Both the position numbers and the translations under genes were made by a program. From positions 1 to 20,094 of the IMG/VR virus record IMGVR_UViG_3300024520_000611: DNA of 20,094 nucleotides; one strand, 5' to 3'. The stretch is from a virus. Below are positions 1,049 to 20,094 of this stretch, one piece after another; within the stretch, counting starts at the first letter, position 1, and every line of letters starts with the position of its first letter. Below the pieces are notes generated by a model that worked only from the letters and a program-made list of their open reading frames with translations, was not told the DNA's origin and did not search any database.

Positions 1049-1723
1049 TTAATTTCCTTTTCCATTGGTTTTCGTAAATTCCACACAGGCGTTCAGGCTA
1101 AAACTTATGCGTTCAGCATCAGGATCATCACTATTAAATGGTGCGACAAAATGTGCCAAATGACTTGGAAAAATTAAGTAAGTTTTTTCAACTGCTGTTT
1201 TCTTATATGCACTAAAAGAAAAATAGTTTTCAGATCCTTCAAAAAATTCAATTGTTCCACTTACATCATGGTGAGGCTTTGCACATTCTAATGGGATCAT
1301 TTTAGGGATTTGCAAATAGCCAACACAAGAAAGCTGGGGGTGTTTTTGTTCAACAGCAGTATGGTTGGTGTGTTGATGTATGGAATTAAATTGGTTTATT
1401 TTCTGTACCACAAACCATGCAGAATTTATCAAAATTTTCTTAACTTTAAAGTCTGGGTATAAGGTCTGGCAATACTCAGAAATACAAACATCAAAAAAAG
1501 AATGTTTATGTTTTAATAAAACTTTTGGTGTGATTAAATATTCCGACTCAACGCTGCCAACTAACTTATGACCAAACATATAACCTTGTCGTTCCTCATC
1601 AGGTAAAGCTCTAATCATTTTAAGATCAGCCAAAAAATCTTTAATTAAATCATTAGGTAAATTTTGTTCAGAAATTGTTGAGCCAAAAGGCTTGAACATT
1701 TTAATATTAATTTTATCGTTCAT
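1049..1723 (-). CDS. 2OG-Fe(II) oxygenase, TIGR02466-like
   Basis: The 224-residue protein carries the double-stranded beta-helix signature of iron- and 2-oxoglutarate-dependent oxygenases. Likely metal ligands are the paired histidines at 116 and 118 (SIHQHTNH) and the distal His191 in FPSHLAHFV. Arg205 in ERISFSL is placed to bind 2-oxoglutarate. The strand SCVGYLQIP and the FPSxLxH block match the layout of the TIGR02466 putative oxygenases, as does the protein encoded at 18060-18695. The substrate cannot be read from the sequence; such phage enzymes have been proposed to hydroxylate proteins or nucleobases. Its start overlaps the end of the upstream nuclease gene by 11 bases, so the two are probably co-translated. 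Confidence 0.75.
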   Translation of the reverse strand: MNDKINIKMFKPFGSTISEQNLPNDLIKDFLADLKMIRALPDEERQGYMFGHKLVGSVESEYLITPKVLLKHKHSFFDVCISEYCQTLYPDFKVKKILINSAWFVVQKINQFNSIHQHTNHTAVEQKHPQLSCVGYLQIPKMIPLECAKPHHDVSGTIEFFEGSENYFSFSAYKKTAVEKTYLIFPSHLAHFVAPFNSDDPDAERISFSLNACVEFTKTNGKGN

Positions 1724-6066: not shown

Positions 6067-6181
6067 AACTAGGCTAATGTATAAATACAAAAGCTGGGTT
6101 TTTAAAAAGCAGGATGCTATTTTAAAAAAGCAAGATGATCTTCAACTGGAAAAGGCAAAGCAAGACATAATTACGACATAA
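6014..6181 (+). CDS. Small charged helical protein (55 aa)
   Basis: AAAGGAGG at 5998-6005 lies eight bases before ATG 6014, one of the best sites in the window, which is why I call this gene although it overlaps the previous frame by 53 bases. It starts MDYDPKKIRELEDQVQNETR and continues as a Lys/Gln/Asp-rich helix (KKQDAILKKQDDLQLEKAKQ). It is probably a coiled coil. Function is unknown. Its stop is followed by the control region of the XRE gene. Confidence 0.65.
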   Translation: MDYDPKKIRELEDQVQNETRLMYKYKSWVFKKQDAILKKQDDLQLEKAKQDIITT

Positions 6182-6196
6182 TTTATTTATAAGTTG

Positions 6197-6227
6197 TGTG
6201 GATAAAATGTAAATGGTTGTGAACAAC
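6197..6227. promoter_or_regulatory. DnaA box and inverted repeat before the XRE gene
   Basis: TGTGGATAA at 6197-6205 is the exact reverse complement of the DnaA-box consensus TTATCCACA. GTTGT-GA-ACAAC at 6216-6227 is an inverted repeat that could be the operator through which the downstream XRE protein controls its own gene. TAAAAT at 6203-6208 could serve as a -10 box, but no -35 is evident. One perfect 9-mer in 20 kb can occur by chance. Confidence 0.4.
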
Positions 6228-6247
6228 TAGAAAGGAGTATTGTCTTT

Positions 6248-6649
6248 ATGCCACTTGATACAAAAGAAAAGTTATCATTTGATAGTCATGTAGGGAAGAA
6301 GTTAAGAAATAAAAGAATACAACTCAAACTCACTCAAACTCATATTGGAAATGCCTTAAATAAAACATTTCAACAAGTTCAAAAGTATGAAAAGGGTGTT
6401 AATGGATTGAGTTCTTTTGTTTTAGGAAAATTAGCTAAGTTTTTTAAAGTTCCTGTTTCCTATTTCTACGAAGGATTTGATTATGAAACTTTTACAAGTC
6501 AATTAACTTACAAAGATAATGAACCAGAAATTCATGTGAACAATCAACACAGGAATGAAAAGCATTATCCTAATCCTAATTCTTATGGTGAAATTACCGA
6601 CCATTTGAATCTGCAGGTAGTAGCAGCACAAAAACTGGTAAGTAAGTAA
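6248..6649 (+). CDS. XRE-family transcriptional regulator (Cro/CI-type HTH)
   Basis: Residues about 14-72 form a Cro/CI helix-turn-helix: VGKKLRNKRIQLKLTQTHIG followed by FQQVQKYEKGVNGLSSFVLGKLAKFFKVPVSYFYEGF. The FQQVQKYEKGxN recognition helix and the VPVSYFYEGF end are characteristic of alphaproteobacterial XRE regulators, which is one reason to suspect an alphaproteobacterial host. The remaining 60 residues are polar and have no protease or dimerisation domain I recognise. AGGAG lies 11 bases upstream. It is the last gene of the rightward operon and probably represses an early promoter; an inverted repeat lies just upstream of it. Confidence 0.85.
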   Translation: MPLDTKEKLSFDSHVGKKLRNKRIQLKLTQTHIGNALNKTFQQVQKYEKGVNGLSSFVLGKLAKFFKVPVSYFYEGFDYETFTSQLTYKDNEPEIHVNNQHRNEKHYPNPNSYGEITDHLNLQVVAAQKLVSK

Positions 6650-6660
6650 TACAACTATGT
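6647..6660. repeat. 14-base repeat, copy 1 (TAATACAACTATGT)
   Basis: The same 14 bases occur exactly at 16853-16866, both at gene ends and both in plus orientation. The first ten bases match the start of the T7 promoter (TAATACGACT) at nine positions, but the rest does not. The TAA of this copy is the stop codon of the XRE gene. Chance is a real possibility in AT-rich DNA. Confidence 0.25.
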
Positions 6661-6665
6661 GTAAG

Positions 6666-6707
6666 CAGGGCTAGTCGGAACCAAGAATAGGTCAACCGAC
6701 TAGCCTG
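6666..6707. other. Long-stem hairpin at convergent junction
   Basis: GGCTAGTCGG (6669-6678) is perfectly complementary to CCGACTAGCC (6696-6705). Allowing one bulged G, the stem lengthens to 12 pairs (6666-6678 with 6696-6707). The 17-base loop contains ACC/GGT, which could form a small inner stem. It is clearly richer in GC than its surroundings. There is no T-run on either side, so it is not a standard terminator. It could be a bidirectional transcript end, a small structured RNA, or a recombination or packaging site. Confidence 0.6.
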
Positions 6708-6724
6708 AGAAGTGTAATTGATAG

Positions 6725-6744
6725 AATTTTAATATATTAGAATT
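6725..6744. repeat. AT-only palindrome
   Basis: AATTTTAATATATTAGAATT is self-complementary apart from one G-T pair. It lies in the roughly 150-base gap between the rightward XRE gene and the leftward small genes, 20 bases after the long-stem hairpin. It could be an end-of-transcript element or a protein-binding site. AT-rich DNA yields such palindromes easily. Confidence 0.35.
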
Positions 6745-6802
6745 GTTTTAGCTTTACAACCCTTAATATAACCCTCCAACCATACCCAATCATATCAAAT
6801 GA

Positions 6803-6958
6803 TTACACCTTATCCGTAGTTTTATTAATCTTTTTACGATTATAAATCTTTTTAGAGGGTATGATTTGAGATTGATACTGTGGGTTTCTCAGGCTTTTAG
6901 CGACAGGATTAGGCGTACTTTTTTTTATGAGTAACTTTTTTTCCTGTTTTTTTAGCAT
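6803..6958 (-). CDS. Small basic phage protein with RNPQY motif (51 aa)
   Basis: A frame from ATG 6958 to TAA 6803 encodes a 51-residue, strongly basic protein whose second half reads VAKSLRNPQYQSQIIPSKK then IYNRKK. The pattern A-x-x-LR-x-x-x-(F/Y)-x-x-(x)-(V/I)-x-x-x-KK-x-Y-x-RK is one I recognise from small conserved proteins of many phages; their role is unknown. It overlaps the upstream 37-residue gene by 50 bases in another frame. AAAAGG stands immediately before the ATG, closer than usual, so the exact start is uncertain. It is the last gene of the leftward late transcript. Confidence 0.6.
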   Translation of the reverse strand: MLKKQEKKLLIKKSTPNPVAKSLRNPQYQSQIIPSKKIYNRKKINKTTDKV

Positions 6959-7022
6959 ACCTTTTGGCAGCCCTTTTTCCTGCTGCTGAATATGAAAAAT
7001 GTTTTCTACCGACTTTTGGCAT
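6909..7022 (-). CDS. Small basic peptide (37 aa)
   Basis: AAAAGGAAC lies before ATG 7022. The peptide starts MPKVGRKHFSYSAAGKRAAK and ends in a Lys-rich stretch; about 40% of residues are Lys or Arg. Its beginning (MPKVGxKxFxY...GKxAAKxYAKKTGKK) is like short basic proteins common in marine phages. It is probably a nucleic-acid-binding or virion-associated peptide, by composition only. It overlaps the upstream zinc-binding gene by 17 bases and the downstream gene by 50. Confidence 0.6.
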   Translation of the reverse strand: MPKVGRKHFSYSAAGKRAAKRYAKKTGKKVTHKKKYA

Positions 7023-7200
7023 TTTGTTCCTTTTCTGTTTGCGTTTTATAACAAGAAAAATGAGCTGGTTCTTTAGTGGCAAATACTACAAACGACATAT
7101 CTGAATTAATGTGCTTGGCACAATATTTGCAATCACCAACATCATAAGTTGCATGAATTTTTCTGCTCCAAGTTTTCTTGGTCTTCTTTTTTTTAAGCAT
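7006..7200 (-). CDS. Small zinc-binding-like protein (64 aa)
   Basis: After a very basic start (MLKKKKTKKTWSRK), Cys24 and Cys27 (DCKYCAKH) and His47 with Cys50 (PAHFSCY) form a C-x2-C...H-x2-C set that would hold one zinc. The spacing suggests a small treble-clef-like or zinc-ribbon fold. The tail is polar and charged. Single-finger proteins of this size often bind nucleic acid, but I know of no named family. It follows the poly-lysine peptide gene by nine bases and has no strong ribosome site. Confidence 0.6.
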   Translation of the reverse strand: MLKKKKTKKTWSRKIHATYDVGDCKYCAKHINSDMSFVVFATKEPAHFSCYKTQTEKEQNAKSR

Positions 7201-7209
7201 TAAAAAGAA

Positions 7210-7278
7210 TTATCTTTTCTTTTTACCTTTTTTATTCTTCTTTTTTTTGCTTTTGTTTTTTTTCTTTTTTTTTGCCAT
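7210..7278 (-). CDS. Poly-lysine micro-peptide (22 aa)
   Basis: ATG 7278 comes one base after the endolysin stop (TAACATG) and GGAAG lies about ten bases upstream, a normal coupled arrangement. The 22 codons give 15 Lys and one Arg; the rest are Met, Ala, Asn, Ser and Gly. The peptide begins MAKKKKKNKS and ends KKGKKKR. A chance open frame in A-rich DNA is possible, but the start/stop coupling and the position inside an unbroken operon argue for translation. It might bind DNA, RNA or the membrane surface. Confidence 0.45.
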   Translation of the reverse strand: MAKKKKKNKSKKKKNKKGKKKR

Positions 7279-7279
7279 G

Positions 7280-7732
7280 TTACTTCCATTGATGATAACC
7301 TTCGTTATCTTTTATTAAGGACTCTTTCCTATTCTTACCAGATAAAAATGAACAATGAATCCAACCTGAATTAATATCACTTTCATCATAATATTCAAGT
7401 ATCAGTTGGTCAAAGTCAAAATTGTTTTTAATGTGTGAGGCCACTTGTTTGTTATCATAACCTGGAATTTCAAAATCACAAGCTGCACCGTTGTTAGCAC
7501 AATGCTGAGAATTAGAACTAGATCCTAGTTTCTCACATAATTTTGGAGAACGATAGCAAGAAGTTATTTTAAGAGGAGCTTCGTAGTAGTCCCTTAAAGG
7601 TTGAAGAATATTTTTAACAAGTTCTTCTATGTTTTGAATTTGTAAATCGTTTGGAGAATTATCTATATGATTTCTTAATGCCGTTTGGCTTTGCGTCATT
7701 TCTTTTAATGTAAAGTTTTGACTGAGTTTCAT
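7280..7732 (-). CDS. Peptidase M15 endolysin (L-Ala-D-Glu or D-Ala-D-Ala type)
   Basis: This 150-residue single-domain protein is a zinc peptidase of the M15A family. It has the SxHxxGxAxDF motif as NSQHCANNGAACDF (His77, Asp86) and the WxH motif as GWIHCSF (His126); these three residues bind zinc. CYRSP (59-63) is the usual CxYRS/T-x-P strand. It has no signal peptide, so release needs the holin. It cuts peptide bonds in the cell-wall peptidoglycan for host lysis. The neighbours (holin, lipoprotein and small membrane proteins) confirm a lysis block. Confidence 0.9.
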   Translation of the reverse strand: MKLSQNFTLKEMTQSQTALRNHIDNSPNDLQIQNIEELVKNILQPLRDYYEAPLKITSCYRSPKLCEKLGSSSNSQHCANNGAACDFEIPGYDNKQVASHIKNNFDFDQLILEYYDESDINSGWIHCSFLSGKNRKESLIKDNEGYHQWK

Positions 7733-16866: not shown

Positions 16867-17187
16867 AATTACTAGATAACTAACCGTTATATCTACAGCA
16901 TCCGTTGAACTCATAGTTGCTTTTAGAATATCAGTTTGCTCCATTACCAAGGGTTCTGTTAGTAATTCTTCAGCTGTATTGGCACTTAAAGAATAAGTAT
17001 TGATTATTTTATAAGTGGCACTAGCTGAGGTATCGGTCATATCCAATGTAACTGTAGGTGTATTAGCTGTATTATTACTAATTCTAATAGATTTAATAAT
17101 TATAGTTTCTGTTGCTCCTGCTGTTAAAATAGCAGTTTGAGATACTGTTGCAAGGGGTGTCCCTTTAAATTTATAAGTGTTTGCCAT
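16861..17187 (-). CDS. Small beta-rich virion protein (108 aa)
   Basis: Composition is rich in Thr, Ser, Ala and Ile with alternating strands (TAILTAGATETIIIKSIRIS, TPTVTLDMTD, ATYKIINTYSLS, AVDITVSYLVIT) and no Cys or Trp. This is typical of small beta-sandwich tail, fibre or decoration proteins of phages. Position next to the virion genes agrees. The start overlaps the preceding gene by 17 bases with an A-rich site only. I cannot assign it to a named structural family. Confidence 0.55.
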   Translation of the reverse strand: MANTYKFKGTPLATVSQTAILTAGATETIIIKSIRISNNTANTPTVTLDMTDTSASATYKIINTYSLSANTAEELLTEPLVMEQTDILKATMSSTDAVDITVSYLVIT

Positions 17188-17395
17188 CTTTTTCTTTTTT
17201 AGGAAGATAACTTAATAAATGTTGTAGTTTTCCATAATTGCTATCTTTTGCTTCTAGCCATTTATCAATTTCTTTATTTATATCACTATGGTCCACAATA
17301 GCCATAGGGTTCTTTAATAATAATTTTATATTTTCATCAGCTTCTAGGACTTTAGATTCATATTGTCTTTTAAGCGATTCAATTCTTTGTTCCAT
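17171..17395 (-). CDS. Small coiled-coil protein (74 aa)
   Basis: The sequence (MEQRIESLKRQYESKVLEAD and on) is helical, highly charged, and has heptad-spaced Leu/Ile, with a short central break at NPMAIVDHSDI. It is probably a coiled-coil adaptor, perhaps a chaperone or minor virion protein for the beta-rich protein with which it overlaps. It is the first gene after the hairpin at 17406-17432, and no clear ribosome site is seen beyond the purines in that hairpin's 3' arm. Confidence 0.55.
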   Translation of the reverse strand: MEQRIESLKRQYESKVLEADENIKLLLKNPMAIVDHSDINKEIDKWLEAKDSNYGKLQHLLSYLPKKEKDGKHL

Positions 17396-17446: not shown

Positions 17447-18067
17447 TCAACTTTTAAACCAACTTGGTAGTCCTAAATGAGGTCGTTTATCAAAAAGGTT
17501 TTGTCCTGAACCTTTAGTTTTTTTATTGTTATAATGTAAAAATACTTGTCCGCAAGATTTACCTTTAAACTTTTCTCTCCAATGTTCCAATTCACAACCA
17601 CTATAAACCAACATATCTCCTGGTTCTAAATTTACTTTAATACCTTTCTTTCCCTCTTGTCCTGATGGTTCAAGGTATAAATCCCATTTATCTCCACCTA
17701 AATTCATTGTTGTAGATATTTCACAACTAAACCTATCTTTATGTCTTTTTAAAATATCTCCCTTTTTATAAAGTCTGGCATAGGTATAAGCTGGTTGAAG
17801 TTTTAAACCTGTGGTCTTTTCCATAATCGGTTGGCATTTTAATAATAAAGTTTCCATAACTATATCTGAATAGCAAGAATAAGTATGTGGTATTTGTTCA
17901 TTTGCTCCCTCATAATATCCAAGTATAACTTCATAAGGGGAAATATATCTTCTTTGAATACAAGTATCATAAACTTGTTTTTTCATTAAAAAATAATTGT
18001 AAATAAAAGTAGCCATGTCTTTTGAAATGGCTTGTTTAATAACTACATATTTATTTTTCTTAAACAT
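17447..18067 (-). CDS. 2OG-Fe(II) oxygenase (206 aa)
   Basis: The beta-helix fold signature is clear. His109 and Asp111 form the HxD metal pair (ILKRHKDRFSCEIS), His162 is the distal ligand (CELEHWREKF), and FKGKSCGQVFLHY holds the 2-oxoglutarate-binding part, probably through Lys170. The first 60 residues fit the helix-strand lead-in (FIYNYFLMKKQVYD). Ligands are intact, so it should be active. Target unknown; related phage and bacterial proteins are annotated only as putative hydroxylases. It overlaps the upstream oxygenase by eight bases and is the last gene of the oxygenase run. Confidence 0.8.
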   Translation of the reverse strand: MFKKNKYVVIKQAISKDMATFIYNYFLMKKQVYDTCIQRRYISPYEVILGYYEGANEQIPHTYSCYSDIVMETLLLKCQPIMEKTTGLKLQPAYTYARLYKKGDILKRHKDRFSCEISTTMNLGGDKWDLYLEPSGQEGKKGIKVNLEPGDMLVYSGCELEHWREKFKGKSCGQVFLHYNNKKTKGSGQNLFDKRPHLGLPSWFKS

Positions 18068-18695
18068 TTTTTGCCATCTCTTTAGGGATAGCGGTTATAT
18101 TCCAATGGATAAATCTAAAGGGTGCTTTACCATGATCTACTGCGTATTCATGTTCTAAATATCCTGGAAAAATAATTAAAGTTCCAGGCTTTGGTCTAAA
18201 ATTAACTAGCTCTGTTCCAGGCCATATACCTTTTTGGTTTTTCATTTTTAATTTAGTAGCTCTTGCTCCTGTTCTAGGTTCATGGAAAATAGGATAAGAA
18301 GTTTTATCTGAACATTTTAAAAAATAGAATCCTGATACATGCTGATTCCAATGAATATGTGCTGAATGATGACCTCCGCCTTTTTTAGAAAATTCTTGTA
18401 CCCACATTTCAGAAAACATAGTTTGATATTGTGGCATATCAAAACCACTGTGATCTAAAAATTCCCAAGACTTTTGACCTATATAGTTTCTTAAATCTAT
18501 AAAATCATTATCTTGTGTTAATGGAGTTGAGTGCCATGACCTACCAAAATCTCCAAAGTCTTTTAGATATTTTTTAGAATCAGGCATTTTTTTAGCTGCC
18601 TTAATATATTTATCACTAGCTTTGTTTAATGATTTAACAAACTCTGGTTTTTCTTCTGTCCAAACTGGTGTTGAAAAATAATTATTTATATACAT
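18060..18695 (-). CDS. 2OG-Fe(II) oxygenase, TIGR02466 / 2OG-FeII_Oxy_5 type
   Basis: The layout fits the TIGR02466 putative oxygenases: HHSAHIHWNQHVSGFYFLK (His113 and His115, with the SGFYFLK strand), then SYPIFHEPRTGARA, then the distal His182 in FPGYLEHEYAV, and Arg194 in PFRFIHWNI. These elements also appear, in the same order, in the protein at 1049-1723 and partly in the protein at 19320-19835. It starts in a TAATG overlap with the upstream oxygenase. Catalytic residues look complete, so enzyme activity is probable, on an unknown substrate. Confidence 0.8.
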   Translation of the reverse strand: MYINNYFSTPVWTEEKPEFVKSLNKASDKYIKAAKKMPDSKKYLKDFGDFGRSWHSTPLTQDNDFIDLRNYIGQKSWEFLDHSGFDMPQYQTMFSEMWVQEFSKKGGGHHSAHIHWNQHVSGFYFLKCSDKTSYPIFHEPRTGARATKLKMKNQKGIWPGTELVNFRPKPGTLIIFPGYLEHEYAVDHGKAPFRFIHWNITAIPKEMAKNV

Positions 18696-19333
18696 TATTT
18701 AAATGGATATCCTAAATGCCATAAGACAAGTGAATATCTAGTTCCTGAAGTTATCGGTTTAACTCTATGCCAAAGAAAACTAGGAAACACTACAATACTT
18801 CCTTTAGGTAATATCTCTGTTGCTTTTCTTAAATGTTTATCTTCCTCTCTTTGATGAGGCTCATAGTTTCTAAAATCAAATTCTAGTTCCCCACCTTTAT
18901 ATTCTGAACCATCGGTTAATTGACAAGTCATAGATAGCTTTCTTATCTTACCATTATCAGGATCATTTTTATTTTTTCTTTTATATGCTTTATCCCAACT
19001 ATCACAATGCCAATCGTAATATTGACCTTGTTTATATTTTGTAAATTGACAAGACTCCGATCTATCCCATTCAAAATTCCAACCAGCTCTTTTGTTGGCT
19101 TCATGGACAAAGGGGTGTATTTCTTTATAAATCCAAGTATCGTTGAACCATACTAAATCTGATTTTCTTTTTCTTTGAATATTTTTAATATCTTCTTTTG
19201 ATAATTCTTTTTTGTCAAAACCCCCAGTTCTAGCAATACTGTCTTGTTGTTGTAATGCGTATTTAATAACTTCATCACAGAATCTAGGCGTTAATGCAGA
19301 TTTAAAATACCAAAAGTAATTAGATAAATTCAT
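18695..19333 (-). CDS. PKHD-type 2OG-Fe(II) hydroxylase (PiuC/YbiX-like)
   Basis: The 212-residue protein has a complete prolyl-4-hydroxylase-like site: His109 and Asp111 in YYDWHCDSWDK, distal His189 in FPSFLWHRV, and Arg199 in TSGTRYSLVLW for 2-oxoglutarate. The end (SFLWHRVKPITSGTRYSLVL) is the hallmark of PiuC/YbiX PKHD hydroxylases. Family members include Fe-related bacterial enzymes of unclear substrate and many phage proteins. It is embedded in the oxygenase run, with overlaps to the genes on both sides (14 bases and one base). Confidence 0.85.
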   Translation of the reverse strand: MNLSNYFWYFKSALTPRFCDEVIKYALQQQDSIARTGGFDKKELSKEDIKNIQRKRKSDLVWFNDTWIYKEIHPFVHEANKRAGWNFEWDRSESCQFTKYKQGQYYDWHCDSWDKAYKRKNKNDPDNGKIRKLSMTCQLTDGSEYKGGELEFDFRNYEPHQREEDKHLRKATEILPKGSIVVFPSFLWHRVKPITSGTRYSLVLWHLGYPFK

Positions 19334-19835
19334 TAGTAATAGTTAAAATAAAGTTAAGGGAATCTTTTTGATTGTTGGTGATGTAATACATATTAGTTGA
19401 TGGGAACATAATAAATTGATTATTTTTTAAAGGCATATCCCAACTTCTTCCTGCTCTTCTATTGTCGTCATAATGGATTCTAACACTACAATCTTTAACA
19501 TTAACACCATATAACAAAGTGTAATCAGGAGAATTTCTTAAATCTACAGGATCTATATTTAATAAAGGAATAGAAATTTCTTTGGGTTTATAAACATTTC
19601 CCCATGTTTCTTTATTTACTAATTGGAAACCAAATTCCAAATTAATATGTTCTCTTAAATAGGTATTAAGTTTATCCCATTCCCTTGAATAGGGAAATTT
19701 TTTATTATTGATTTGTGATTTTAGAATATCTTCTTGAAGTTTATTACAATTTATTTCAAAACCTTTCGGCATTGAAACATCACCATAATATATTGCTATT
19801 TCTGAAAGTTTGTTTTTTTGTATTCCGCCACCCAT
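19320..19835 (-). CDS. Oxygenase-fold protein without clear metal ligands (171 aa)
   Basis: The C-terminal half aligns by eye with the protein at 18060-18695: LLYGVNVKDCSVRIHYDDNR parallels SGFYFLKCSDKTSYPIFHEPR, and FIMFPSTNMYYITNNQ parallels IIFPGYLEHEYAVDHG. At the positions of the ligands it has no HxH/HxD (the strand before is NIDPVDLRNSPDYT), and the distal His is Tyr (MYYIT). It is therefore probably an inactive relative, perhaps with a binding or structural role. An alternative is that HYDD (121-124) is itself a metal site. I also recall the DDNRRxG...W motif from marine phage proteins of unknown function. No ribosome site is visible; the start follows the upstream stop by nine bases. 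Confidence 0.6.
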   Translation of the reverse strand: MGGGIQKNKLSEIAIYYGDVSMPKGFEINCNKLQEDILKSQINNKKFPYSREWDKLNTYLREHINLEFGFQLVNKETWGNVYKPKEISIPLLNIDPVDLRNSPDYTLLYGVNVKDCSVRIHYDDNRRAGRSWDMPLKNNQFIMFPSTNMYYITNNQKDSLNFILTITNEFI

Positions 19836-19844
19836 ACAGTTTGA

Positions 19845-20094
19845 TTATAAATCTGATTTTAATTCCCAGTCGGTACTGCTTTCATTCCATTCGTAACGAT
19901 GTCTATGAGTACCAGCGGTATTTTGAGATTCTTGTGCAGCCGTTAAAGCTGGAGCATCTCCTTTTGGGGATTTCCAAGAAGCTGTAGGAACATCAAGAAC
20001 CCAACTTGCATAAGGTTTTTTACCATAGAATAAATTATTATCTTCATCCCAAGTATAACCTATACCTGCGTAGTTTCCTCTTAATGGTGTACCA
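19845..20094 (-). CDS. C-terminal part of a marine-phage structural-type protein
   Basis: The frame enters from the right edge and gives 82 residues up to TAA at 19845. It begins with GTPLRGNYAGIGYTWDEDNN followed by FYGKKPYASWVLD, a pattern I recall at the C-terminus of cyanophage and other marine phage proteins (LRGNYAGIGYTYD...FY.PKPYASW). It ends in a charged, His-containing stretch. Usually these proteins lie among structural or host-interaction genes. The N-terminus is outside the window, so total length and function are unknown. Confidence 0.65.
   Translation of the reverse strand, partial: GTPLRGNYAGIGYTWDEDNNLFYGKKPYASWVLDVPTASWKSPKGDAPALTAAQESQNTAGTHRHRYEWNESSTDWELKSDL

Follow-up and report, generated by a model that had tools for sequence, protein, structure and literature searches.

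What do four overlapping genes of one fold do together next to the tail-fibre genes of a marine virus? The row is conserved, and its carrier is a virus of the ocean's commonest bacteria. The stretch of DNA that we analysed (the window) is a viral contig of 20,094 bases, kin of the cultured pelagiphage HTVC023P. The row consists of four overlapping ORFs on the minus strand, g4-g3-g2-g1, spanning positions 17447-19835. g4 and g3 overlap by 14 nt, g3 and g2 by 1 nt, and g2 and g1 by 8 nt. From the overlaps it seems probable that the array is transcribed as one unit and is translationally coupled.

A sequence-only reading of this DNA had claimed that the four genes share an oxygenase fold and lie beside virion genes. 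The ORF check located all four, tail-fibre genes adjoin them, and profile and structure searches of each protein (Pfam for g2 and g3, AlphaFold2 models for g1 and g4) assigned every one of them to the 2-oxoglutarate/Fe(II) (2OG-Fe(II)) oxygenase fold. g1, g2 and g3 look like active oxygenases, and g4 looks like a relative lacking the iron-binding residues. The array is preceded by the 3′ part of the gene of a small Trp-rich protein, c3 (19845..20093, minus strand; phrog_7759, E 1e-15), and the next gene downstream, found by the ORF and PHROGs searches, encodes 74 amino acids (17171..17395, minus strand; phrog_1811). A fifth oxygenase gene (1049..1723, minus strand; PF13759, E 1.8e-9; HxH...H...R), overlooked by the sequence-only reading, lies outside the array near the opposite contig end.

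Fold and ligands of g1, g2 and g3

The 212-residue product of g3 (18695..19333, minus strand; H109-x-D111...H189...R199) matched the Pfam family PF13640 with 59.4 bits against a cut-off of 27 (E 7.1e-16). H109, D111, H189 and R199 were kept in 141/141 sequences (R190 aside). The profile match and the HxD...H...R motif place g3 in the 2OG-Fe(II) oxygenase superfamily. g2 (18060..18695, minus strand; 211 aa; H113-x-H115...H182...R194) matched PF13759 with 51.6 bits, the cut-off being 27 (E 1.3e-13). Its HxH pair, H113/H115, was present in 117/118 sequences and H182 in all 118, and the profile together with these three predicted metal ligands assigns g2 to the same superfamily.

The two proteins had been ascribed to the PKHD (g3) and TIGR02466 (g2) subfamilies. 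g3 scored under the equivalog cut-offs of the PKHD-type hydroxylase models PRK05467/YbiX (56.4 against 143 and 29 against 399), and g2 scored under the NCBIfam cut-off of TIGR02466 (54.3 against 62.5 bits). Thus the likeness to these subfamilies holds, but membership does not.

g1 (17447..18067, minus strand; 206 aa; H109-x-D111...H162-W-R) is labelled ferrochelatase in PHROGs (phrog_2954), and the same label, which the sequence-only reading did not mention, is used in published pelagiphage work. g1 itself had no Pfam match, and the ferrochelatase family PF00762 matched none of 18 g1 homologues at E values up to 10. The only enzyme lead among the weak matches of the homologues was the 2OG oxygenase family PF13532, found with one member (E 0.015). 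Because the sequence-only hhalign links g1-g3 and g4-g2 had probabilities <1% each, structure was needed to assign g1 and g4.

The AlphaFold2 model of g1 (pLDDT 90, pTM 0.87) had as its best Foldseek match a Pseudomonas prolyl-4-hydroxylase bound to EF-Tu (4iw3_A, E 9.4e-9). In VIA-align comparisons the model aligned with SnoN (5ep9_C) over 183 residues (Z 16.3, rmsd 3.1) and with PHD2 at Z 15.9. Among the 50 best PDB matches listed, nearly all were named 2OG/Fe(II) oxygenases. Model and matches agree on a double-stranded beta-helix fold, and none of the tests made here supports the ferrochelatase assignment: the predicted structure contradicts it, and PF00762 is lacking in the 18 homologues. 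The Pseudomonas enzyme and PHD2 hydroxylate prolines in proteins (EF-Tu and HIF).

The putative metal ligands H109, D111 and H162 were invariant in 145/145 sequences, and were also retained in distant phage and cellular homologues. The sequence-only reading had credited three of the genes with complete motifs, which is true of g3 and g2 but not of g1: it has no Arg or Lys at the usual place, some 10 residues beyond the distal His. The residue invariant near there is Gln174; His178 is invariant as well, and R98 and R164 are other invariant candidates. The 2OG-binding residue varies within the superfamily, so the fold assignment of g1 stands. We regard g1 as a predicted prolyl-hydroxylase-like oxygenase with putative use of 2OG as cofactor.

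g4, a relative without metal ligands

g4 (19320..19835, minus strand; 171 aa) had no Pfam match. Its AlphaFold2 model (pLDDT 83, pTM 0.81) was matched best by 3bvc_A in Foldseek (E 1.1e-5), and VIA-align superposed it on 2rg4_A with Z 14.3 (159 aligned residues, rmsd 5.8). 3bvc and 2rg4 are PF13759-type proteins, and the fold of g4 is TIGR02466-like. The aligned ligand site reads N93-x-D95, and g4 does not have the HxD/HxH...H pattern of active oxygenases. According to the ligand table, N93 (codon 19557..19559, minus strand) occupies the position of the first metal His in intact orthologues, and Y150 (codon 19386..19388, minus strand) that of the distal one. Position 93 is Asn in 124/147 homologues, position 150 is Tyr in 140/147, and Asp95 is retained in 135/147. 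The proposal that the fourth gene shares the fold and not the ligands was therefore confirmed. The tripeptide HYD at positions 121-123 was considered as an HxD motif and rejected, since the position of its His holds H, F, Y, N, D or C in homologues and the aligned ligand site lies elsewhere, at N93-x-D95.

An intact His-x-Asp...His set was found in just four of the 147 homologues. Three of these are the type occupying the same slot, between the c3 protein and g3 (including those of loci L176 and L181), and the fourth is an extra copy in L051, which also aligns with PF13759 proteins. The homologue in L156 has the first His and has lost the second. In a FastTree tree of 147 tips the common ancestor of the four intact homologues spans five tips. 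As the tree does not fix the root, we infer the direction of change, which would be a ligand loss (H to N93 and H to Y150).

The dN/dS value of g4 (0.187) is like those of the other three genes (0.16-0.20), which argues that g4 is selected for something besides such catalysis. Purifying selection, combined with the existence of ligand-bearing orthologues in the same slot, makes g4 a conserved pseudo-oxygenase. A separate 140-aa gene that follows g1 in HTVC008M (L005:10626-11048) has HxH, apparently without the distal His, and is possibly a degenerate oxygenase.

Order, insertions and setting of the array

Conservation of the order was checked in loci chosen by similarity to one member, a choice that guarantees this member and not the others. 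In g4-anchored loci with 3.5 kb of room downstream, g3, g2 and g1 followed in order in 19/19. g1-anchored loci with room upstream had all partners in 36/42, always in the same order; loci anchored on the g1 of HTVC008M had all partners in 12/22 and in order in 10. The sampled loci are for the most part rather closely related, and choice by similarity inflates the agreement; the recurrence of the order in most related loci is well above chance.

Membership of the array is variable. g2 or g4 is absent from some arrays, and most of the genes that have entered the array or its vicinity are further oxygenases. Among 87 diverse neighbours PF13640 was found in 33 and PF13759 in 27 (one protein may match several families). 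The neighbours also include a few carbamoyltransferases and sulfotransferases, one Trp halogenase and one Asp/Asn hydroxylase, and glycosyltransferase-like genes are present in some arrays. In locus L022 a tryptophan-halogenase-like gene (6111-7595) separates g3 from g2 within the array.

PHROGs labels many of the inserted genes 'DNA endonuclease V' (phrog_274). The T4 DenV control matched phrog_1183 and PF03013 (Pyr_excise), and the phrog_274 proteins matched neither of these. The phrog_274 sequences inspected have HxD...H...R and profile links to oxygenase families; 2OG-oxygenase-like examples without PF03013 are L075:2648-3130, L003:10891-11373, L007:8145-8633 and L006:6663-7175. The label looks wrong for these inserts, and the DNA target that it suggested is unsupported by the control.

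In 147 cases c3 immediately preceded g4, and in 124 a c1 fibre gene lay upstream of c3. A Gly-rich ORF ended ≤2.5 kb upstream of g4 in 120/126 loci. The array comes after Gly-rich tail fibres and before other tail or virion genes. In HTVC025P, CRP-207 and Melnitz, c3 and Gly-rich fibres occur with no annotated oxygenases in the stretches inspected around them. The strong claim that c3 is the dedicated substrate was rejected, because c3 is found in several phages without annotated oxygenases in the stretches inspected nearby.

HTVC027P, a phage of the same group, had no matches to g1-g4, and no Gly-rich fibres in the stretch inspected. At the equivalent tail site it has gp72-gp74 (L226:4292-5953), three inverted genes in a row that bear oxygenase motifs; gp73 alone is annotated as an oxygenase and the other two are hypothetical. 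HTVC027P rules out the Gly-rich fibre as a necessary partner of the array, and shows that oxygenase arrays are drawn to the site even where this kind of fibre is lacking. The different run at the equivalent site points to a modular cassette that can be exchanged, and not to a fixed pathway.

The variable membership, the inserted oxygenases and the different genes of HTVC027P would also fit unrelated morons that had accumulated in an insertion hotspot and have no joint function. We consider this improbable: g4-g3-g2-g1 is the order in nearly all loci with room, the frames overlap, and the four genes are under similar purifying selection. The order retained across related phages argues against random insertion, in agreement with the sequence-only reading, and the additional genes of the array are other tailoring enzymes. 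Stepwise modification of a virion molecule, which that reading also suggested, is a hypothesis.

Possible functions and comparison with known systems

The best explanation, which we hold tentatively and at slightly less than even chances, is that the array is a late protein-tailoring cassette, probably acting on fibres, with g4 as its pseudo-oxygenase. Three predicted active 2OG-Fe(II) oxygenases and the ligand-less g4 stand in fixed order in HTVC023P-type and related marine phages. They would be expressed late, and g1-g3 would hydroxylate amino-acid side chains in proteins synthesised concurrently, the likeliest targets being the neighbouring tail fibres. g4 would be no catalyst, and may bind or scaffold the substrate or the enzymes. 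Swapping of cassette members could then alter the chemistry of the virion surface. What the enzymes act on and what g4 does are the least certain parts. The predicted fold of g1, closest to Pseudomonas prolyl-4-hydroxylase, PHD2 and SnoN, speaks for the cassette, and so do the conserved order, the place after the fibres, the tailoring enzymes in the neighbourhood and the selection on g4; against it speak the HTVC027P run without a Gly-rich fibre, the fibres and c3 without annotated oxygenases, and the missing Arg/Lys of g1.

The tailoring reading gains from the surroundings of distant cellular g1 homologues in Mucilaginibacter and Methylomonas (33-36% identity to the window protein). Near them are sulfotransferase, Asn synthase and more 2OG oxygenase genes, with PqqD and transglutaminase-like genes on the same contig. 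On the Mucilaginibacter contig (211,666 bp) B1/B2 are at 83.6-84.3 kb and Asn synthase at ~89-90 kb; in Methylomonas PqqD adjoins the g1 homologue and B2 is further off. A lasso-peptide cluster would have PqqD, transglutaminase-like B2 and Asn-synthase C genes close together; these clusters, only two in number, look lasso-peptide-like. The surroundings of the cellular g1 homologues L250 and L252 contain a sulfotransferase, a kinase-like gene and further 2OG oxygenases.

A broader version of the tailoring cassette, which we think unlikely though worth stating, is that marine phages have, next to the fibres that bind receptors, a line of post-translational tailoring in which exchangeable oxygenases organised by a dedicated pseudo-oxygenase subunit chemically diversify the fibres. 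A halogenase, a sulfotransferase or a carbamoyltransferase would join in some phages, and the fibres might be decorated by analogy with the precursors of peptide natural products.

An auxiliary metabolic role is quite unlikely. Consumption of 2OG, or action on small host metabolites, would change how the infected cell handles nitrogen or iron, in line with the 2OG/NtcA signalling proposed for cyanophages (PMC3037559) and the iron-linked auxiliary metabolic genes proposed for pelagiphages (PMC9599517, PMC12753301). The heme/ferrochelatase half of this idea, however, rests on a label contradicted by the structure of g1, a drawdown of 2OG needs neither many divergent oxygenases nor a ligand-less member, and the neighbours of the array are tail genes and no metabolism genes. 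Ecological conclusions in print depend on such names: genes labelled 'ferrochelatase' (phrog_2954) and those of 2OG oxygenases have been reported as enriched in seasonal viruses and as partners in an iron/heme pairing (PMC11561400, PMC9599517). Should g1 be an oxygenase too, a heme role would be left without support in these phages.

There is similarly little probability that the enzymes modify molecules or glycans on the host surface (LPS, capsule), for instance to block superinfection. Sulfotransferase, carbamoyltransferase and glycosyltransferase-like genes in some arrays would suit such a role, but the core four are not accompanied by sugar-nucleotide or LPS genes, and the structures that fit g1 best include protein prolyl hydroxylases. 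Least probable of all is an AlkB- or TET-like role in nucleic-acid modification or repair: it is favoured by a Tet-like dioxygenase as the weak best PDB sequence match of the g1 profile (E 0.21) and by the DNA repair proposed for cyanophage oxygenases (PMC3037559), but no DNA methyltransferase or base-modifying gene was prominent in the neighbour census, and the 'DNA endonuclease V' label fails the T4 DenV control.

Multi-oxygenase cyanophages were already known (PMC9602691, PMC3037559), and PHD-like folds have been found in marine phages generally with Phold (PMC12774648). The use of viral prolyl-4-hydroxylase genes has been called cryptic (PMC9301287); beyond that remark the literature searched yielded no paper on phage prolyl hydroxylation. 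In the literature searched, which covered few subscription papers, we found no earlier correction of the ferrochelatase label, nor any statement that 'ferrochelatase' or the 'DenV' inserts are oxygenases or that the set includes a conserved pseudoenzyme. Marine phage oxygenases are abundant and have no known function; the ordered tail-adjacent array, its pseudoenzyme and its peptide-tailoring relatives make the question testable in HTVC023P.

Pseudomonas putida prolyl-4-hydroxylase (4iw3, 4j25) and PHD2 rank with the structures most similar to g1, but share only ~11-16% identity with it, and g1 has Gln near the usual Arg/Lys site. The TIGR02466/PF13759-type structures 2rg4 and 3bvc are the best matches of g4, and g2 belongs to PF13759; they differ from g4 in that g4 has lost the metal ligands. 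Arrays of S-SM1, HTVC008M and Mosig are alike in having PF13640/PF13759/'ferrochelatase'/'DenV' runs near fibre or neck genes, and that of S-SCSM1 has 24 genes (PMC9602691). These arrays of T4-like cyanophages and pelagimyophages differ by their larger membership and other order.

Among the closest systems is gp64-gp67 of HTVC023P (MN698239), where all four genes recur with unchanged order and overlap, at 70-80% identity, flanked by fibre and tail genes. They are annotated as a hypothetical protein, two 2OG oxygenases and a 'putative ferrochelatase', and the literature searched does not present them as a quartet of one fold. HTVC023P-type phages are reported to have eight non-orthologous 2OG genes, often close to each other, with every ferrochelatase adjoined by a 2OG oxygenase (Wittmers 2022, PMC9599517). 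That study reads the partner as a heme enzyme, whereas here g1 has an oxygenase fold and the array includes a pseudo-oxygenase. The co-location of 2OG and 'ferrochelatase' genes has been known since 2022; to judge from the literature searched, the two reassignments ('ferrochelatase' and 'DNA endonuclease V') and the pseudoenzyme appear to be new, though we claim no priority.
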